Positions 3 through 34,152 of a stretch of DNA of 40,248 bases are shown here, one piece after another. Below the pieces are notes generated by a model. The model ran no database searches, was not told where the DNA came from, and saw nothing but the letters and a program-made list of their open reading frames with translations. The DNA lies in NCBI GenBank assembly GCA_019347915.1, contig JAHWKL010000010.1, positions 1-40,248 on the forward strand, given 5' to 3'. The stretch comes from Actinomycetota bacterium (lineage in GTDB: Bacteria; Actinomycetota; Acidimicrobiia; Acidimicrobiales; CADCSY01). The position numbers and the translations under genes are program-made. Within the stretch, counting starts at the first letter, position 1. Each line of letters starts with the position of its first letter.

Positions 3-92
3 GACGCCGAGGGTGAGGTCAGGGCGTCGTTCGTGGGCCAGCCCAGCGCCACCGAGCTGTGGACCACTCTCGCCGAACTGCGGGACCAATGA
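3..92 (+). CDS. C-terminal end of a redoxin-like protein (partial)
   Basis: This open frame runs in from the left edge and stops with TGA at 90-92, so only 29 residues are visible and no start can be given. The visible end (…DAEGEVRASFVGQPSATELW…) resembles the tail of TlpA/thioredoxin-like proteins, where a 'dG.v...fvG' strand is followed by a terminal helix that starts 'eL...l..L'. No catalytic cysteines are in view. The next minus-strand gene also looks thioredoxin-like, which makes a redoxin neighbourhood plausible. The family call is inference from a short tail. Confidence 0.45.
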   Translation, partial: DAEGEVRASFVGQPSATELWTTLAELRDQ

Positions 93-9344: not shown

Positions 9345-9380
9345 ATGTCCGTCCGCCGCTCCCTCGTAGCCATCACGTAG
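9345..9380 (+). CDS. ilvB leader peptide (11 residues)
   Basis: ATG at 9345 opens an 11-codon frame, [11 protein letters not shown], closed by TAG at 9378-9380. The residues just before the stop are Leu-Val-Ala-Ile-Thr, i.e. the end products of the pathway plus the isoleucine precursor. The base after the stop begins a GC hairpin, and a terminator follows. This is the layout of a transcription attenuator, as established for ilvBNC in Corynebacterium glutamicum. Its role as a ribosome-stalling peptide is inferred from sequence; it is too short to have another likely function. Confidence 0.75.
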
Positions 9381-9442
9381 CGCACGCCGCGATCTCCGCG
9401 CGTGCGCCCACGACCTCCCGGCCGGGAGGTCGTTCCAGTTTT
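9381..9442 (+). promoter_or_regulatory. ilvB attenuator: hairpin plus intrinsic terminator
   Basis: The first hairpin pairs CGCACGC (9381-9387) with GCGTGCG (9400-9406) and starts at the base after the leader stop codon. A perfect 24-base palindrome follows at 9410-9433 (12 bp per arm, from ACGACCTCC to GGAGGTCGT), then a short T run (GTTTTC at 9438-9443). CGTG (9401-9404) could instead pair with CACG (9409-9412), which would disturb both hairpins and might act as a weak antiterminator. The ilvB ribosome site follows at about 9467-9472. Confidence 0.75.
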
Positions 9443-9475: not shown

Positions 9476-11215
9476 ATGAAGCTGACCGGAGCCCAAGCCC
9501 TGATCAAGAGCCTGGAGATGGAAGGGGTCGAGGTCATGTTCGGCCTGCCCGGCGGGGCGATCCTCCCCGTCTACGACCCCATCATCGACAGCTCCATCCG
9601 CCACGTCCTGGTTCGCCACGAGCAAGGTGCCGGTCACATGGCCGAGGGTTACGCCCACGTGACCGGGCGCCCCGGCGTGGCCATGGTCACCAGCGGTCCT
9701 GCCGCCACCAACATCGTCACGCCGCTGGCCGACGCGTACATGGACTCGATCCCGCTGGTGGTCATCACCGGGCAGGTGCCGTACTCGTCCATCGGCTCGG
9801 ACGCCTTCCAGGAGGCCGACACCACGGGGATCACCATGTCGGTGACCAAGCACAACTGGCTGGTCACCAAGGCCGCCGACATCCCTGAGATCGTCAAGGA
9901 GGCGTTCCACATCGCCAGCACCGGGCGGCCCGGGCCCGTCCTGATCGACGTGCCCAAGGACGTCAGCAACCAGATGATGGACTGGTACTGGCCCGAGTCG
10001 GTCGACCTCCCCGGCTACAAGCCCAGCTCCAAGGGCCACCCCCGGATGATCAAGGAGGCGGCCCGGTACCTGCTCGAGGCACGCCGGCCGGTCATCTACG
10101 CCGGCGGCGGCATCCTCAAGGCTCGGGCCGCCGAGACCCTGCGGGAGCTGGCCGAGCTCACCGGGATCCACGTGGTCACCACCCTCATGGCCCGCGGCGC
10201 CTTCCCCGACGACCACCCGTTGTGCCTGGGCATGCCGGGCATGCACGGCAACTACACCGCTGTCACCGCCATGCAGGAGGCCGACCTGCTCGTCGCCCTG
10301 GGCTCCCGCTTCGACGACCGGGTGACCGGCAAGGTGGACGGCTTCGCCCCGGAGGCCAAGATCGTCCACGTCGACATCGACCCCGCCGAGCTGGGCAAGG
10401 TCCGCCGTGCGGACGTGCCCATCGTGGGCGACTGCCGGCTGGTCATCGAGGAGCTGGTCCAAGCGGTGCGGGCCCTCATGAGCGGGGGCGTCCAGCCTCC
10501 CGATCGCAGCCCGTGGGACGCCACCATCCGAGGTTGGCAGGAGCGGTACCCCCTTGCCTACGAACCCTCGGCCGAGGGCAACGCCCTCAAGCCGCAGATG
10601 GTGCTCGAGCACCTGCGCGACTCCACCCCCGACGACACCATCGTGGTCTCCGGGGTGGGTCAGCACCAGATGTGGGCGAGCCAGTACTGGCGCTTCAACC
10701 ATCCCTACACGTGGGTCAACTCCGGCGGCCTCGGCACCATGGGCTTCGCCGTGCCGGCGGCCATCGGCGCCAAGGTGGGTCGTCCCGACCGGATGGTGTG
10801 GGCGGTCGACGGCGACGGGTGCTTCCAGATGACGGCCCAGGAGCTGGTCACCGCCACCGCCGAGCGCATCCCGATCAAGGTGGCCATCCTCAACAACGCC
10901 TACTTGGGCATGGTCCGCCAGTGGCAGGAGATGTTCTACGACGAGCGCTATTCCGAGGTGTACCTCTCGCCCGATCTGCCCGACTACGTGAAGTGGGCCG
11001 AGGCCATGGGATGCGTGGGGCTGCGGGCCGAGACGCCCGAGGACATCCAGCCGGTGATCGACAAGGCCAACGCCATCAACGACCGGCCGGTGGTGATCGA
11101 CTTCCGCACCGACAGCCAGGAGAAGGTCTATCCGATGGTGCCGGCCGGGCAGTCCAACGACGCCATCGTGGTGCCTCCCTTCCAGGAGGGCCGGCACGGC
11201 GAGGGCGGGCACTGA
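9476..11215 (+). CDS. ilvB: Acetolactate synthase large (catalytic) subunit
   Basis: The 579-residue ThDP enzyme condenses two pyruvates to acetolactate, or pyruvate with 2-oxobutyrate to acetohydroxybutyrate: the first common step of valine/leucine and isoleucine synthesis. The N-terminal Pyr domain has '[14 protein letters not shown]' and the catalytic Glu in '[14 protein letters not shown]'. The central FAD-related domain spans roughly residues 195-335. The C-terminal PP domain has the ThDP motif from '[13 protein letters not shown]' to 'ILNN'. ATG 9476 follows an AGGAG site. The stop overlaps the ilvN start by one base (TGATG). Expression is probably controlled by the leader and attenuator at 9345-9442. 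Confidence 0.97.
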
Positions 11216-21453: not shown

Positions 21454-21495
21454 ATGCTGCGTCACCTCCGCTCCTGCATCCTCCTGCTTATTTGA
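21454..21495 (+). CDS. leuA leader peptide (13 residues)
   Basis: ATG 21454 opens a 13-codon frame, MLRHLRSCILLLI, ending with TGA at 21493-21495. Five of 13 residues are leucine and two are isoleucine, with Ile-Leu-Leu-Leu-Ile directly before the stop. Such enrichment in front of leuA is the hallmark of leucine-sensing attenuation. A hairpin starts at the next base, and a strong terminator follows. An in-frame GTG directly before the ATG (21451) is an alternative start. Confidence 0.85.
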   Translation: MLRHLRSCILLLI

Positions 21496-21557
21496 GGCGA
21501 GCGCCTCCCGGTGCTCGCCGCCACCTCCTGCGCCTCCGGGCCAGGAGGTTTTCTTTT
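21496..21557 (+). promoter_or_regulatory. leuA attenuator: hairpin plus intrinsic terminator
   Basis: GGCGAGC (21496-21502) pairs with GCTCGCC (21513-21519), immediately after the leader stop. The terminator pairs CCTCCTG (21524-21530) with CAGGAGG (21542-21548), followed by TTTTCTTTT (21549-21557), the clearest intrinsic terminator in the window. GGTG (21510-21513) can pair with CACC (21522-21525), a possible antiterminator that breaks both stems. The leader's own leucine codons at 21480-21486 repeat the terminator's left arm (CCTCCTG). Confidence 0.85.
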
Positions 21558-21588: not shown

Positions 21589-23136
21589 ATGGCCGATCGG
21601 GTCGTCATCTTCGACACCACGCTGCGAGACGGTGAGCAGTCACCGGGGATCTCCCTCGACGCTGCCGAGAAGCTCGAGATCGCCGAGCAGCTTTCCCGCC
21701 TGGGCGTCGACGTGCTCGAGGCCGGCTTCCCCGTGGCCAGCCCCGGGGACTTCGAAGCGGTGCGGGCCATCGCCCGCTCGGTCGAGGGCCCCGTCATCTG
21801 CGGGCTCTCCCGCACCCACCTGGGCGACGTGGACCGGTGCTGGGAGGCGGTGGGCGACGCCGACCGGGCTCGGATCCACGTGTTCATCTCCACCAGCCCC
21901 AGCCACATGGAGCACATGCTGAAGATGAACGAGGCCCAGGTGCTGGCGGCGACCCGGGCAGGAGTGGCTCGGGCGCGCGAGCACACCGACGACGTCGAGT
22001 TCAGCCCCCAGGACGCCACCCGCACCCCCCTCGAGTTCATGCTCGAGGTGCTCCAAGCGGCGGTCGACGCCGGCGCCACCACGTTGAACATCCCCGACAC
22101 CGTCGGATGGGGCATCCCCTGGGACTTCGGCGCGCTGATCCAGTACGTGCGGCGTGAGGTCAAGGGCGACTACGTCACCTCCACCCACTGCCACAACGAC
22201 CTGGGGCTGGCCACGGCCAACTCGCTGGCCGGCATCCAGGCCGGCGCCCGCCAGGTCGAGGTGTGCGTCAACGGGCTGGGGGAGCGGGCCGGCAACGCTG
22301 CTCTGGAAGAGGTCGTCATGGCCCTGAACATCAGGGCCGACCAGTTCCCCGGCGTGGAGATCGGCGTCCGCACCGAGGAGCTGGCCCGGACCAGCCGTCT
22401 CGTCGCCCGGCTGACCGGCTACCCCGTCCAGTACAACAAGGCGGTGGTGGGCCGGAACGCCTTCGCCCACGAGTCGGGGATCCACCAGCACGGGGTGCTG
22501 GCCGACAGCAGCACCTACGAGATCATCGACGCCGCCACCGTGGGCCAGACCGGCCGCCAGATCGTGCTGGGCAAGCACTCCGGCCGTCACGCCTTCGCCG
22601 ACACCCTCGAGCGCATGGGCCTGCGCGTCCAGGGTGACGCCTTCAACGCCGCCTTCGCCCGGTTCAAGGAGCTGGCCGACCGCAAGGTGAGCCTCACCGA
22701 CGCCGACCTGGAGGCGATCGTGGCCGAGGAGATCGGTGGCCATGTCGACGACGCCTTCCAGCTCGAGTCACTCGAGGTACGAGGGGGGACCGTGGGCACC
22801 CCGGTGGCCCTGGTGGTGTTGCTGCGCGCCGGGGACAAGCTCGAGGCCAGTGCCGAGGGCGACGGCATGATCGACGCCGCCTGCAAGGCCATCCGGGCCG
22901 CCACGGGCGTGGACGGCGTGCTCACCGACTTCAACGTGTCGTCGGTCACAGGGGGTGTCGACGCCCTGGGCGACGTCATCGTCCAGCTCGACGCCGGCGG
23001 CGTCCGCGTGTCGGGCCGCGGCGTGTCCACCGACGTGGTCGAGGCCTCGGCCCGGGCCTTCCTGAGCGCGGTCAACAAGGTCGTCCGGGTGCGCCGGCGC
23101 CAGCAGGTCGTCCGCCAGCCCGAGGTCACTCCGTGA
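21589..23136 (+). CDS. leuA: 2-isopropylmalate synthase
   Basis: The 515-residue enzyme condenses acetyl-CoA with 2-oxoisovalerate, the first leucine-specific step. The TIM barrel starts '[19 protein letters not shown]' and carries the metal-binding '[13 protein letters not shown]' and '[19 protein letters not shown]'. The C-terminal regulatory domain (about residues 390-515) is the leucine-feedback LeuA dimer domain. Length matches the LeuA class of E. coli rather than the longer mycobacterial form. The start is ATG 21589 with GAAAGGGA upstream. A longer frame from 21511 would translate the attenuator and is rejected. Leucine control is expected at both attenuator and enzyme. Confidence 0.96.
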
Positions 23137-27409: not shown

Positions 27410-27447
27410 GGCTGTCCTCGGCTCTCTCTCGCTTCCCGAAGCGGGGA

Positions 27448-27482
27448 GGGCGTCTCGAATAGTGAGACACTAGTCTTGTGTC
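27448..27482. promoter_or_regulatory. leuC/iclR divergent promoter and operator dyads
   Basis: GTCTC (27452-27456) and GAGAC (27464-27468) form an inverted repeat with a 7-base spacer. AGAC (27465-27468) and GTCT (27473-27476) form a second, overlapping dyad. TAGTCT at 27471-27476 is a good -10 for the IclR-type gene, whose GTG start is 6 bases on. The dyads therefore overlap that promoter, consistent with autoregulation and control of leuCD. This is inferred from position and symmetry. Confidence 0.6.
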
Positions 27483-28148
27483 GTGGACACCAGTGTAAGC
27501 GGAGTGGGTGTGCTCGACAAGGCGGTCGGGGTTCTGGCCGCCCTGGAAGAGGGCCCGCGCTCGTTGGGCGCCCTGGTGGCGGCCACCGGGCTCTCCCGTC
27601 CCACCGCCCACCGCTTGGCCGTGGCCCTGGAGACCCACGGACTGGTGCGCCGCGATGGTGAGGGCCGCTTCGCCCTGGGGCTGCGCCTGGTGGCCCTGGG
27701 CCGGGCGGCCCGCGACGGGCTGCGACTGGTCGACGCCGCCGGCCCGGCCCTGGAGGCGCTGCGGGTCGAGACGGGGGAGAGCGTGCAGCTGTACGTGCGC
27801 GAGGGCGACCGGCGGGTGTGCGTCGCCGCCCTGGAGTCGCCCCACGGCCTGCGGACCATCGTGCGGGTCGGGGCCTCGCTGCCGCTGGAGCTGGGCTCGG
27901 CGGGCAGGGTCCTGCGGGAGGAGCCGGGGGTGGTCGAGCGCGGGTGGGCGGAGAGCGTGGGGGAGCGGGAGGCGGGGGTGGCCTCGGTGAGCGCCCCGGT
28001 GCTCGATCCCGCCGGCCGGGTGCGGGCGGCGGTCAGCGTGTCCGGCCCCATCGAGCGCACCGGCCGCTCGCCGGGGCGGCGTTACGGGGCGGCGGTGGCC
28101 CGGGCGGCCCGGGGGGTGGAGGCGGCGGTGGGCGACGGCGGTTCCTGA
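27483..28148 (+). CDS. IclR-family regulator, LtbR-like
   Basis: The 221-residue protein has an N-terminal winged helix-turn-helix (about residues 8-70, 'VLDKAVGVLAALEEG…LVAATGLSRPTAHRLAVAL…GLVRR') and a C-terminal IclR effector domain (about 80-210). It sits divergent to leuC exactly as LtbR does in Corynebacterium and the IclR gene in mycobacteria, where the product represses leuCD and leuB. It is slightly shorter than typical because the effector-domain middle is compact. GTG 27483 follows a TAGTCT box by 6 bases. The assignment as LtbR rests on synteny. Confidence 0.9.
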   Translation: MDTSVSGVGVLDKAVGVLAALEEGPRSLGALVAATGLSRPTAHRLAVALETHGLVRRDGEGRFALGLRLVALGRAARDGLRLVDAAGPALEALRVETGESVQLYVREGDRRVCVAALESPHGLRTIVRVGASLPLELGSAGRVLREEPGVVERGWAESVGEREAGVASVSAPVLDPAGRVRAAVSVSGPIERTGRSPGRRYGAAVARAARGVEAAVGDGGS

Positions 28149-29946: not shown

Positions 29947-30420
29947 CTATTCCCCGATGGAGACGATCTCGACCTCGAGCGCCCGGCCGTTGACCTCGTA
30001 GGTCCGCCGGTCACCCGGGGCAGCTCCCAGCACGGCCCGGCCGAGTGGCGACCCCGGGGACAGGACCTCGAGGTCGTCGTGCCGCTCCTCGATGGAGCCG
30101 ACGAGGAAGCGCTCGACGTCGTCATCACCCGCGAATCGGAGGTGGACCACGGTGCCCACAGTGACGCAGTCGCCGCTGCGGCTGCGGCCGTCGACCACCA
30201 CCGCATCGGCCAGCACCGCGCTGATCTGGCGGATGCGGGCCTCCATCTTTCCCTGCTCTTCCTTGGCGGCGTGGTAGTCGCCGTTCTCGCTCAGGTCACC
30301 GAGCGCCCGGGCCGTCTCGATCTTGCGGGCGATCTCGACGCGACCCTCGGTCGTCATCTGCTCGAGCTCCCGCTGGAGACGCTCGTACGCGGTCCGCGAG
30401 AGTTCCTGCACTTCAGCCAT
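29947..30420 (-). CDS. greA: Transcription elongation factor GreA
   Basis: The 157-residue protein has the N-terminal antiparallel coiled coil (about residues 8-78) with the tip 'GDLSENGDYHAAKEEQG', whose acidic residues stimulate transcript cleavage in the RNA polymerase secondary channel, and a C-terminal FKBP-like domain (about 83-157, 'SPGSPLGRAVLGAAPGD'). Length is standard. ATG 30420 follows a TAGCCT box (30427-30432 on this strand) at 6 bases, suggesting a leaderless message. The gene is divergent from the leuB leader. Confidence 0.96.
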   Translation of the reverse strand: MAEVQELSRTAYERLQRELEQMTTEGRVEIARKIETARALGDLSENGDYHAAKEEQGKMEARIRQISAVLADAVVVDGRSRSGDCVTVGTVVHLRFAGDDDVERFLVGSIEERHDDLEVLSPGSPLGRAVLGAAPGDRRTYEVNGRALEVEIVSIGE

Positions 30421-30481
30421 ACCGCGAGGCTAACGGCTCGCTTCCTCGGCCCGTCCCCACTCCGCCGTCAGCTTCCCGGGG

Positions 30482-30510
30482 TTGACGGGGGCGCCGACCG
30501 GTGGCCACAC
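30482..30510 (+). promoter_or_regulatory. Promoter of the leuB leader
   Basis: TTGACG (30482-30487) and CACACT (30505-30510) are separated by 17 bases; the leader ATG follows 8 bases later. Sequence around the -10 resembles that of the ilvB leader (GGTG, then CCA-N-ACT and CG just before ATG). Confidence 0.55.
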
Positions 30511-30518
30511 TGAACGCG

Positions 30519-30557
30519 ATGCCCCGCACCATCTCCGCGGTCGCCTTCATCACCTAG
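30519..30557 (+). CDS. leuB operon leader peptide (12 residues)
   Basis: ATG 30519 opens MPRTISAVAFIT, ending with TAG at 30555-30557. Isoleucine, valine and threonine codons are frequent; leucine is absent. This fits control of an operon that makes isoleucine via citramalate (leuB-ilvE-cimA) rather than leucine alone. The final bases and stop, ATCACCTAGCGCACGCCG, match the ilvB leader end at 9372-9389 in all but one base. A hairpin and a terminator follow. Function is inferred from layout. Confidence 0.75.
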   Translation: MPRTISAVAFIT

Positions 30558-30613
30558 CGCACGCCGTTCCTCGGCGTGCGCTCCTCGACCGTCCACTCCG
30601 GTGGGCGGTTTCT
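30558..30613 (+). promoter_or_regulatory. leuB operon attenuator: hairpin plus terminator
   Basis: CGCACGCCG (30558-30566) pairs perfectly with CGGCGTGCG (30572-30580), starting at the base after the leader stop. CCGTCCAC (30589-30596) pairs with GTGGGCGG (30601-30608) around a TCCG loop, followed by TTTCTTCGTT. The leuB ribosome site (AGGGAG, about 30621-30626) is outside both stems, so control would be at transcription, not at ribosome access. Confidence 0.75.
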
Positions 30614-30632
30614 TCGTTCCAGGGAGCAGACA

Positions 30633-31614
30633 GTGACGACAAGCCACAGGGTCGGTGTCATCGCCGGCGACGGGATCGGCCCCGAGGTGGTGGCCGAGGC
30701 CCTCAAGGTGGTCGACGCCGCCGGCGTCAGTCTCGACACCGTCGCCTACGACCTGGGCGCCCGGCGTTACCTGGCCACCGGGGAGGTGTTGCCCGACGCC
30801 GTGCTCGACGAGCTGCGGGGGCTCGACGCCATCCTCCTCGGTGCCGTCGGCAGCCCCGAGGTCCCGCCCGGGGTGCTCGAGCGGGGCCTGTTGCTGCGGC
30901 TGCGCTTCGAGCTCGACCTCTACGTCAACCTGCGGCCCTTCACCGGCGCCGGCCTCGACTTCGTGGTCGTGCGGGAGAACACCGAGGGCAGCTACGCCGG
31001 CGAGGGTGGGCACCCTCCGCCGTGGCGGGCCCCACGAGGTGGCCACGCAGGGCTCGGTCAACACCCGCATGGGCGTCGAGCGTTGCGTGCGGTACGCCTT
31101 CGAGCTGGCCGCCACCCGTCCCCGGCGCCACGTGACCCTGGTGCACAAGACCAACGTGCTGACCTTCGCCGGTGACCTGTGGCAGCGCACGGTCGACGAC
31201 GTGGCCGCCGACCACCCCGAGGTCGGTACCGCCTACTGCCACGTCGACGCCGCCTGCATCCATCTGGTGGAGGCGCCCGAGCGCTTCGACGTGGTCGTCA
31301 CCGACAACCTGTTCGGCGACATCCTCACCGACCTGGCCGGGGCGGTGGCGGGGGGCATCGGGGTGGCCGCCTCGGCCAACCTCAATCCCGCCGGCGCCGG
31401 CCCGTCGCTGTTCGAGCCGGTGCACGGGTCGGCACCCGACCTGGTGGGTACGGGGCGGGCAAATCCGGTTGCCGCCGTGCGCAGCGCCGCCATGATGCTG
31501 GAGTTCCTGGGCGAGGTGGACGCCGCCGCCCGCATCGACAAGGCACTCTCCGATCCCGGCGAGCTCACCGGCTCGACGGTCGAGATCGGCGACGCCATCG
31601 CAGAAAGGGTCTAG
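30633..31614 (+). CDS. leuB: 3-isopropylmalate dehydrogenase, frameshifted as sequenced
   Basis: The gene encodes an NAD+-dependent beta-decarboxylating dehydrogenase for leucine synthesis, also used for 3-methylmalate in the citramalate route. From GTG 30633 the reading gives '[13 protein letters not shown]' through '[16 protein letters not shown]' (126 codons), then loses similarity. The following base frame resumes with '[30 protein letters not shown]' and continues to 31614 with '[16 protein letters not shown]' and '[19 protein letters not shown]'. One extra base in the GGTGGG run at 31005-31010 explains it; a corrected protein would be about 326 residues, normal for LeuB. Uncorrected translation stops at 31175. 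Either a sequencing error or a real mutation is possible. ilvE starts 3 bases downstream. Confidence 0.9.
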
Positions 31615-31616
31615 AG

Positions 31617-32534
31617 GTGCCCATCACCAAGAGCGAGAAGATCTGGATGGACGGCGAGCTCGTCGACTGGGACGACGCCACCATCCACGTCCTGACCCAC
31701 ACCCTGCACTACGGCAGCGGCGTGTTCGAGGGCGTGCGGGCCTACCAGACCCCGTCGGGTCCGGCGGCGTTCCGCCTCACCGACCACATCAGCCGGCTGT
31801 TCGACAGCGCCAAGATCTTCCTGATCGACATCCCCTACACCGCCGAAGAGCTGGTCGAGGCGACCAAGCTGGTGGTGCGGGCCAACGGGCTGCAGAGCTG
31901 CTACATCCGTCCGCTGGTGTACCTGGGGTACGGCGAGATGGGCCTCAACCCCCTCCCGTGCCCGGTCAACGTGTCCATCTCGGCGTGGCCGTGGGGAACC
32001 TACCTGGGCGACGAGGGGGTCAAGCACGGGGTGCGCACCAAGATCTCCTCGTTCACCCGCCACGGCCCCAACGCCATCCCGCCGGCGGCCAAGGGCACCG
32101 GCATGTACATCAACTCCTCCCTGGCCAAGGTCGAGGCGCTCAAGGCGGGCTACGACGAGGCCATCCTGCTCAGCCCCGCGGGTCACGTCAGCGAGTGCAC
32201 GGGGGAGAACGTCTTCGTGGTCCGCGACGGGCACATCGTCACCCCGCCGGTCACCGCCGGGGCCCTCGAGGGCATCACGCAGCACACGGTGCTGACCATC
32301 GCCGCCGACCTCGGGATCGAGTGCGTGGTGGGCAACCTCTTGCGCAGCGACCTCTATCTCGCCGACGAGGCGTTCCTCACCGGCACCGCCGCCGAGGTGG
32401 TTCCCATCCGCTCGGTCGACGACCGCGAGCTGGGCGAACCCGGCACGATCACCCGCAAGATCCAAGAGACGTACTTCGCCGTGGTGCGGGGTGAGGTCGA
32501 CCGCTACAAGGACTGGTGCGAGCATGTCGGCTGA
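31617..32534 (+). CDS. ilvE: Branched-chain amino acid aminotransferase
   Basis: The 305-residue fold-type IV PLP enzyme catalyses the last step of valine, leucine and isoleucine synthesis using glutamate. It shows 'KIWMDGELVDWDDATIHVLTHTLHYGSGVFEGVRAY' in pattern near the N-terminus, the likely PLP lysine Lys159 in 'IPPAAKGTGMYINSSLAK', and 'VSECTGENVFVVRDG', typical of the short IlvE class. GTG 31617 follows the leuB stop by 2 bases, with GAAAGGG just upstream. Its 3' end overlaps the cimA start by 11 bases, so the two are coupled. Confidence 0.95.
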   Translation: MPITKSEKIWMDGELVDWDDATIHVLTHTLHYGSGVFEGVRAYQTPSGPAAFRLTDHISRLFDSAKIFLIDIPYTAEELVEATKLVVRANGLQSCYIRPLVYLGYGEMGLNPLPCPVNVSISAWPWGTYLGDEGVKHGVRTKISSFTRHGPNAIPPAAKGTGMYINSSLAKVEALKAGYDEAILLSPAGHVSECTGENVFVVRDGHIVTPPVTAGALEGITQHTVLTIAADLGIECVVGNLLRSDLYLADEAFLTGTAAEVVPIRSVDDRELGEPGTITRKIQETYFAVVRGEVDRYKDWCEHVG

Positions 32535-34152
32535 ACCGGTGCACCTGCACGATCACCCGCTGCCCCGGCCGCTGGAGATGCCGGCGTCGGTCGAGGTCTA
32601 CGACACGACGCTGCGCGACGGCAGTCAGCAGGAGGGGTTGTCGCTCACCGTCGACGACAAGCTCCGGGTGGCGGAGCAGCTCGACCACCTGGGCGTGGCC
32701 TACATCGAGGGTGGCTGGCCCGGCGCCAACCCCAAGGACGAGGAGTTCTTCGCCCGCGCCCCGAGCGAGTTGCGCCTGGACACGTCGACCCTGGTGGCGT
32801 TCGGCTCCACCCGCCGCCCGGGCGGCCAGGCCGACACCGACGAGACCCTGCGCCAGCTGGTCAAGGCCAACACCAGCACGGTGTGCATCGTGGCCAAGGC
32901 GTGGGACTACCACGTGACCCAGGCCCTGCGCTGCGACCTCGACGAGGCGGTGCGCATGGCCGGCGACTCGGTGGAGTTCCTCCACCACGCCGGCCTGAGG
33001 GTGTTCCTCGACGCCGAGCACTTCTTCGACGGCTACAAGGCCAACCCGGAGTTCAGCCTCCGCGTCCTGCGGGCGGCAGAAGAGGCGGGGGCCGAGGCCT
33101 TGGTGCTGTGCGACACCAACGGCGGCACGCTGCCCTACGAGGTCGAGCACATCCTCTCCGAGGTGATCCCCGCCACCTCTGCCTCGATCGGGGTGCACTT
33201 CCACAACGACGGCGGCTGCGCCGTGGCCAACAGCCTGGCGGCGGTGCGCCTGGGGGCCACCCACGTCCAGGGCTGCGTCAACGGCTACGGCGAGCGGACG
33301 GGCAACGCCGACCTGTGCGCCGCCGTCCCCAACCTCAGCCTCAAGATGGGGGTGCGGACGATCCCGGCCGAGCGGCTGGAGCGGCTCACCCCGGTGGCCC
33401 ACCACATCGCCGAGCTGGTCAACATCGCCCCTGACCCCAAGCAGCCCTACGTGGGGGCCTCGGCGTTCGCCCACAAGGCCGGGCTGCACACCAGCGCCAT
33501 CGCCCGGGCCCCCGACGCCTACGAGCACATCGTCCCCGACTGGGTCGGCAACGGCACGCGGTTCGTGGTCAGCGAGCTGTCGGGTCGGTCCACGCTTCAG
33601 CTCAAGGCCAACGAGCTCGGGCTCGACATGGACGCCCCTGCGCTCACCGACGTCCTGGCCCGGCTGAAGGACCTCGAGCACCGCGGCTTCCACTTCGAGG
33701 TGGCTGACGGCTCCCTCGAGCTGCTCATGCGCGACGCCGGCGGGTGGAGCCAGCCGTTCTTCGCCCTGGAGTCGTTCCGGGTGTCGGTCGAGCACCGGGC
33801 CAACGGTGAGTTCACCACCGAGGCCACGGTCAAGATCCACGTCGACGGCGAGCGTGTCATCCGCACCGCCGAGGGCAACGGTCCGGTCAACGCCCTCGAC
33901 GCCGCCGTCCGCCAGGCCATCGGGTCGAGGTTCCCGGCGCTGGCCGACCTCCACCTGACCGACTACAAGGTCAGGGTGCTCGACACCGACAAGGGGACCG
34001 GGGCGGTGACCCGGGTCCTGCTCGACACCACCGACGGGAGCAAGACGTGGTCGACCATCGGCGTGTCCACCAACATCATCGAGGCGTCGTGGCAGGCGCT
34101 GAGCGACTCGCTCGTCTACGGCTTGTTGCACTCGCCCGACGAGGAGAGCTGA
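32524..34152 (+). CDS. cimA: Citramalate synthase
   Basis: The 542-residue LeuA-family enzyme matches the CimA group: 'SVEVYDTTLRDGSQQEGLSLTVDDKLRVAEQLD' in pattern, 'EGGWPGANPKD', the metal site in 'VHFHNDGGCAVAN' and 'VNGYGERTGNADL', and a C-terminal regulatory domain from about residue 405. CimA condenses pyruvate with acetyl-CoA to citramalate, giving a threonine-independent route to 2-oxobutyrate and isoleucine. It would need LeuCD and LeuB for the next steps, and leuB is in the same operon. ATG 32524 overlaps ilvE by 11 bases. Specificity against isopropylmalate or homocitrate is judged from overall similarity. Confidence 0.93.
   Translation: MSAEPVHLHDHPLPRPLEMPASVEVYDTTLRDGSQQEGLSLTVDDKLRVAEQLDHLGVAYIEGGWPGANPKDEEFFARAPSELRLDTSTLVAFGSTRRPGGQADTDETLRQLVKANTSTVCIVAKAWDYHVTQALRCDLDEAVRMAGDSVEFLHHAGLRVFLDAEHFFDGYKANPEFSLRVLRAAEEAGAEALVLCDTNGGTLPYEVEHILSEVIPATSASIGVHFHNDGGCAVANSLAAVRLGATHVQGCVNGYGERTGNADLCAAVPNLSLKMGVRTIPAERLERLTPVAHHIAELVNIAPDPKQPYVGASAFAHKAGLHTSAIARAPDAYEHIVPDWVGNGTRFVVSELSGRSTLQLKANELGLDMDAPALTDVLARLKDLEHRGFHFEVADGSLELLMRDAGGWSQPFFALESFRVSVEHRANGEFTTEATVKIHVDGERVIRTAEGNGPVNALDAAVRQAIGSRFPALADLHLTDYKVRVLDTDKGTGAVTRVLLDTTDGSKTWSTIGVSTNIIEASWQALSDSLVYGLLHSPDEES

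Follow-up and report, generated by a model that had tools for sequence, protein, structure and literature searches.

A putative leader-peptide attenuator tuned to isoleucine and valine in front of leuB-ilvE-cimA in Acidimicrobiia

The window (the whole 40,248-nucleotide stretch of Actinomycetota DNA that was analysed) carries leuB, ilvE and cimA one after another on the plus strand. The leuB fragment (30633..31614, GTG start) matches best to NF002898, 3-isopropylmalate dehydrogenase; ilvE (31617..32534) encodes a branched-chain aminotransferase (TIGR01122, 416.7 bits, cut-off 245.55) and cimA (32524..34152) a citramalate synthase (TIGR00977, 675.8 bits, cut-off 450). By the latter, curated model CimA is a true citramalate synthase and not a second LeuA. 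A search of the same genome, which is 85.7% complete, with the single model TIGR01127 gave no ilvA match above the cut-off. The leuB frame of the window contains one extra base near 31005-31030; since the frame is intact in a sister species (G001), the break would reflect either a genuine frameshift or an error in the assembly.

Upstream of leuB, also on the plus strand, a promoter-like pair (TTGACG 30482-30487 and CACACT 30506-30511, spacer 18 nt) can be read from the sequence. It is followed by a leader ORF of 12 codons, MPRTISAVAFIT (30519..30557, ATG at 30519, TAG at 30555-30557). A perfect hairpin, P1 (30556..30582), begins within the leader stop codon: it has 9 bp if counted from the base after UAG and 11 bp if AG of the stop is included (30556-30566 with 30572-30582). 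Next comes a predicted intrinsic terminator, P2, with a T-rich tail (30587..30618; GACCGTCCAC-TCCG-GTGGGCGGTT), so placed that it separates the leader from the first gene, as in an attenuator. According to the terminator scan the P2 stem (30587-30610) consists of 10 pairs with a 4-nt loop ahead of the T-rich tail, the U-tract being interrupted (TTTCTTCGTT). Over the 301 bases covered, the same scan found two terminator-like sites, where shuffles gave 0.1, and the fold of 30500-30640 reaches -62.1 kcal/mol (z = -3.2; 1 of 200 shuffles equally good). A sequence-only reading of this DNA had described just such a set (a promoter-like pair, a 12-residue leader, a perfect hairpin after the stop and a terminator with a T-rich tail) before genes of the citramalate route, and had proposed folding of this interval as a check. 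All of these elements are present, the fold is better than expected and the identity of CimA agrees with the proposed route; only the terminator stem had been described differently, as 8 bp long. Rfam 15 at the gathering score returned only two tRNAs for the window and nothing meaningful at 30400-30700, and a relaxed E-value revealed nothing relevant at the leader region either. A possible pairing of the linker GCTCC with the leuB ribosome site GGAGC exists in the window but is not conserved in relatives.

We searched for leuB in 118 relative genomes and extracted the upstream regions. In 52 of them the same anatomy is found, alignable end to end. All nine modelled P1 pairs vary in this alignment, and eight of the nine are changed on both sides; 94.9% of the cells in P1 and 98.9% of those in P2 are paired. 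The whole structure scored above all 500 shuffles on every measure (0/500). In a mutual-information scan the P1 pairs were the strongest, one P2 pair was among the next, and no third helix appeared. Within the class, 254 of 395 genomes are matched by a covariance model built from the leuB leaders (R1); outside the class it matches only a few members of the phylum, mostly before ilvB. The leader is not universal, as several relatives, including the same-family genome G006, have leuB without it. Chance is ruled out, since the leader is conserved in many families of the class. P2 as a generic, genome-wide terminator was also considered and rejected, because CGTCCAC..GTGGGCGGT is a pattern that hardly occurs outside the DNA upstream of leuB.

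The position of the promoter is a further conserved feature. A strict sigma-70 consensus scan gave no matches, the promoter-like pair of the window falling below its threshold. Of 111 leuB leaders, 69 have the looser pattern TTGAC-(17..20)-NANNNT-(4..11)-start, with the start in frame with the leader, compared with 0.15 expected from shuffled upstream DNA. In these 69 the promoter pair lies upstream of the leader ORF, as an attenuator demands, and ends 4-11 nt (mode 9) before an in-frame ATG, GTG or CTG; leaders so defined mostly have 10-13 codons. In the window, the leader ATG is 7 nt past the putative -10 element. Since this spacing puts the start codon just past the -10 element, the leader is probably translated in a leaderless fashion.

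Codon statistics were obtained for 108 distinct leaders of the leuB type. The frame, its end position and the Ile/Val codons are kept in these leaders, and 101 of them terminate with UAG. Over the four codons that precede the last one, Ile accounts for 52%, Val for 32%, Thr for 3% and Leu for 0%. Positions -5 to -2 read Val/Ile, Ile/Val/Ala, Val/Ile and Ile, the penultimate codon being Ile in 103 leaders; codons -9 to -7 of the same leaders are without such bias. The last codon, Thr in the window, differs from leader to leader (P 27, R 17, S 15, V 11, T 8). Thus, codons for the pathway product are found in the ORF, as is typical of ribosome-mediated attenuators. The leader of the window itself is a slightly degraded case: Ala and Phe occupy two of the four usual Ile/Val positions (Val-Ala-Phe-Ile), and the sister species has Val-Ala-Val-Ile there. 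The sequence-only reading had taken the region for a leader-peptide attenuator tuned to Ile, Val and Thr rather than Leu, and had suggested aligning relatives. The attenuator is now supported by leader conservation, codons and covariation, with both the leader frame and the paired stems conserved in relatives. Preference for Ile and Val over Leu also holds; tuning to Thr is not supported, given the variation at the last codon. Features beyond that reading are the probable leaderless initiation, the paralogous leaders before ilvB and leuA, and the class-wide conservation.

These paralogous leaders lie in the same window, on the same strand. R1 matches 9351-9442 (E 3.4e-7), where an ORF of 11 residues (9345..9380) is followed by P1 (9380-9387 with 9400-9407) and a terminator (9412-9431), the two structures spanning 9380..9431; ilvB, its identity confirmed, starts with ATG at 9476. 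Reading upstream of leuA (ATG at 21589) uncovered the leader ORF MLRHLRSCILLLI (21454..21495, stop TGA) with P1 at 21496-21519 and a terminator at 21523-21549 (together 21496..21549). Its Leu-Leu-Leu end is conserved in the leuA leaders of relatives, which, where a leader is found, mostly end in (I/T/V)-Leu-Leu-Leu-Thr-stop. The ilvB leaders are rich in Val (.52), Leu (.32) and Ile (.12; n=29) and end in Leu-Val-Val-(Leu/Ile). Stand-alone cimA genes also have leaders, with Ile at.89 (n=32) and mostly three or four Ile before the last codon, and in the cimA and ilvB leaders, too, codons further upstream are free of such bias; loci with such Ile runs are, for the most part, L218, L224, L228, L283-L288, L290, L293-L296, L298, L299, L302-L304, L306-L309, L312 and L314. 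In a member of the phylum outside Acidimicrobiia (L244), a cimA-like gene is preceded by a related leader whose last residues are ATVIID. Inspection by eye of leuCD, on the other strand, showed no such leader. Between leuC and a divergent gene for an IclR-family regulator there is an inverted repeat at about 27440-27490 (GTCTC..GAGAC and GTGAGACACTAGTC), and the resemblance of this palindrome to a regulator site suggests protein control there. That codons match the pathway in four types of operon is the strongest evidence for sensing by the ribosome and an internal control against chance. It is not explained by sequence similarity alone, since neither the terminator nor P1 has the same sequence in the different types.

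Our analysis is less straightforward with respect to an antiterminator. When the 5' arm of P1 is masked, its 3' arm becomes available for pairing with the 5' arm of P2. The fraction of this pairing is 0.18 with the ribosome stalled on the penultimate codon and 0.44 with a ribosome at the stop; in the latter case it exceeds 0.4 in 34 of 52 sequences, which is not clearly above shuffled controls. The same outcome was obtained for pairing of the leader codons with either P2 arm, of the leader 5' end with either P2 arm and of the P1 5' arm with the P2 3' arm. Duplex energies of six candidate pairings were about equal to those of shuffled sequences, with no clear excess. With full masking, the P2 5' arm of leuB leaders is sequestered by upstream sequence at 0.50-0.52, against 0.40-0.45 with shuffled upstream sequence; in the other three types sequestering was no better than shuffled. 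In other words, none of the four leader types has a base-paired antiterminator clearly above shuffled controls. The modelled ribosome, with a footprint that extends 15 nt 3' of the first P-site base (maybe a few bases off), masks more of the P1 5' arm at UAG than at the penultimate Ile codon. In the model, this runs opposite to what the simplest antiterminator mechanism would need, unless release is fast. P1, once formed, keeps the terminator arm free (0.11 versus 0.41 shuffled), so that it acts like an anti-antiterminator.

Considering all these data, we propose that the region is a ribosome-mediated transcription attenuator sensing Ile and Val, a reading to which we assign a probability of about 0.85. 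Comparison of sequences speaks for the leader frame, its codon content, both hairpins, the promoter position and the operon, whereas leader translation, termination and the response to Ile and Val are the steps we infer. RNA polymerase would start at or beside the leader AUG, and a 70S ribosome would read the 12-codon leader without a Shine-Dalgarno site. With charged Ile- and Val-tRNA available, the ribosome would reach UAG and leave; P1 would then form, followed by P2, and transcription of leuB-ilvE-cimA would be halted. Shortage of Ile (or Val) would stall the ribosome at the Ile/Val codons that closely precede the stop, disturbing the 5' side of P1; termination would decrease and enzymes of the citramalate route would be made. 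The weakest step is how the stalled ribosome would prevent P2. It is tempting to speculate that ilvB, leuA, leuB-ilvE-cimA and stand-alone cimA form a four-operon regulon with a modular, codon-swapped leader, in which the stall acts without a conventional antiterminator, through P1 beside a sequence-constrained terminator; we regard this wider scheme as tentative and rather doubtful.

One alternative to ribosome sensing would be a conserved RNA bound by a protein or metabolite, as proposed for the LEU element, with the ORF incidental or an aid to expression. The terminator core of the leuB type (CCGUCCAC/GUGGGCGG) is nearly invariant and nearly leuB-specific, being conserved in sequence beyond the needs of pairing; its U.G wobble is kept in 94 of 109 cases although pairing permits change. 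Together with the missing antiterminator this would fit a bound ligand. Yet the architecture remains constant while the amino acids change with the operon (cimA four Ile, leuA three Leu, ilvB Leu/Val/Ile), and an RNA of that kind would not need operon-matched codons, which makes it unlikely. The S. coelicolor ilvB leader also has to be taken into account: codon mutations there, as cited in PMC1262725, were without effect, and this result would count against attenuation by the ribosome. The interrupted U-tract in the window and the Ala and Phe codons of its leader weigh against it as well. Translational control, by which reinitiation would raise leuB translation or stalling would act on RNA decay or Rho, seems quite unlikely. 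Reinitiation at leader peptides has been put forward in PMC4833913, and in the window 75 nt separate the leader stop from leuB; among relatives, however, this distance varies from about 70 to >200 nt, and the hairpin with its T-rich tail is kept in every aligned case with the leuB ribosome site outside it.

A sensor that responds to threonine as well is very improbable. The window leader does have Thr codons at positions 4 and 12, but the last codon is Thr in only 8 of 108 leaders, and upstream Thr amounts to 16-18% in leuB, cimA and ilvB leaders alike, that is, it is not operon-specific. Finally, the hairpins might represent a plain terminator or an unregulated leader, with the ORF there by chance, short ORFs being common and the stem being as GC-rich as the genome. 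As far as chance goes, this is refuted by covariation, promoter spacing and the frame, stop position and Ile/Val codons retained in 108 distinct leaders; we consider it scarcely credible. Attenuation sensing Ile and Val therefore remains our preferred reading.

If correct, this reading would add the citramalate pathway to isoleucine to the targets of attenuation and would place leuB, which is shared with leucine synthesis, under the supply of Ile and Val rather than Leu. Because four operons in one class have one design and different codons, they form a natural experiment that can show which codons are read when a leader senses through the ribosome. The leaders may also provide a control handle for the poorly studied, mostly uncultured Acidimicrobiia, and the missing antiterminator poses a testable question on how they work.

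As proposed for the region described here, operon-specific Ile, Val and Leu codons in the leaders of enterobacterial ilvGMEDA, ilvBN and leuABCD control intrinsic termination. Those attenuators differ in having Shine-Dalgarno-initiated, longer leaders and well-defined antiterminators, and in having no genes of the citramalate pathway. Among actinobacteria, Seliverstov 2005 described the leuA LEU element and candidate ilvB, leuS and trp leaders, likewise peptides with codons for the pathway product; leuB and cimA are absent from the operons described (PMC1262725). The LEU element differs in its run of Leu codons paired to the Shine-Dalgarno sequence of the gene downstream, in its pseudoknot touching the leuA ribosome site and the lack of an obvious terminator (PMC1262725), whereas the window leader before leuB has no Leu codons and has a predicted terminator instead of the ribosome-site stem. 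In M. tuberculosis, ilvB1NC likewise has branched-chain regulatory codons in a uORF (LVVI) followed by an intrinsic terminator, with a mapped terminated transcript; it differs in its Leu/Val/Ile set before ilvB, UGA stop and proposed antiterminator (PMC13236596). The ilvBNC attenuator of Corynebacterium (ilvB-II motif; leader MTIIRLVVVTARRLP) also combines a leaderless ORF rich in branched-chain codons, P1, P2 and genes for branched-chain amino acids (PMC10272879, PMC11857589). In C. glutamicum, transcription of ilvBNC starts one nucleotide from the leader start, leaderless initiation has been reported as well, and there is evidence for translation-dependent attenuation (PMC11857589). The target there is ilvB, not leuB or cimA, P1 contains the regulatory codons and an antiterminator was tested; in the window leader the codons end one before the stop, P1 starts inside the stop codon and no antiterminator is clearly above controls. 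Within the open-access literature, we found no paper that describes leader peptides of leuB or cimA for Actinobacteria. The proposed mechanism is a known one, resembling the actinobacterial ilvB attenuators, and leuB and cimA would be its new targets.
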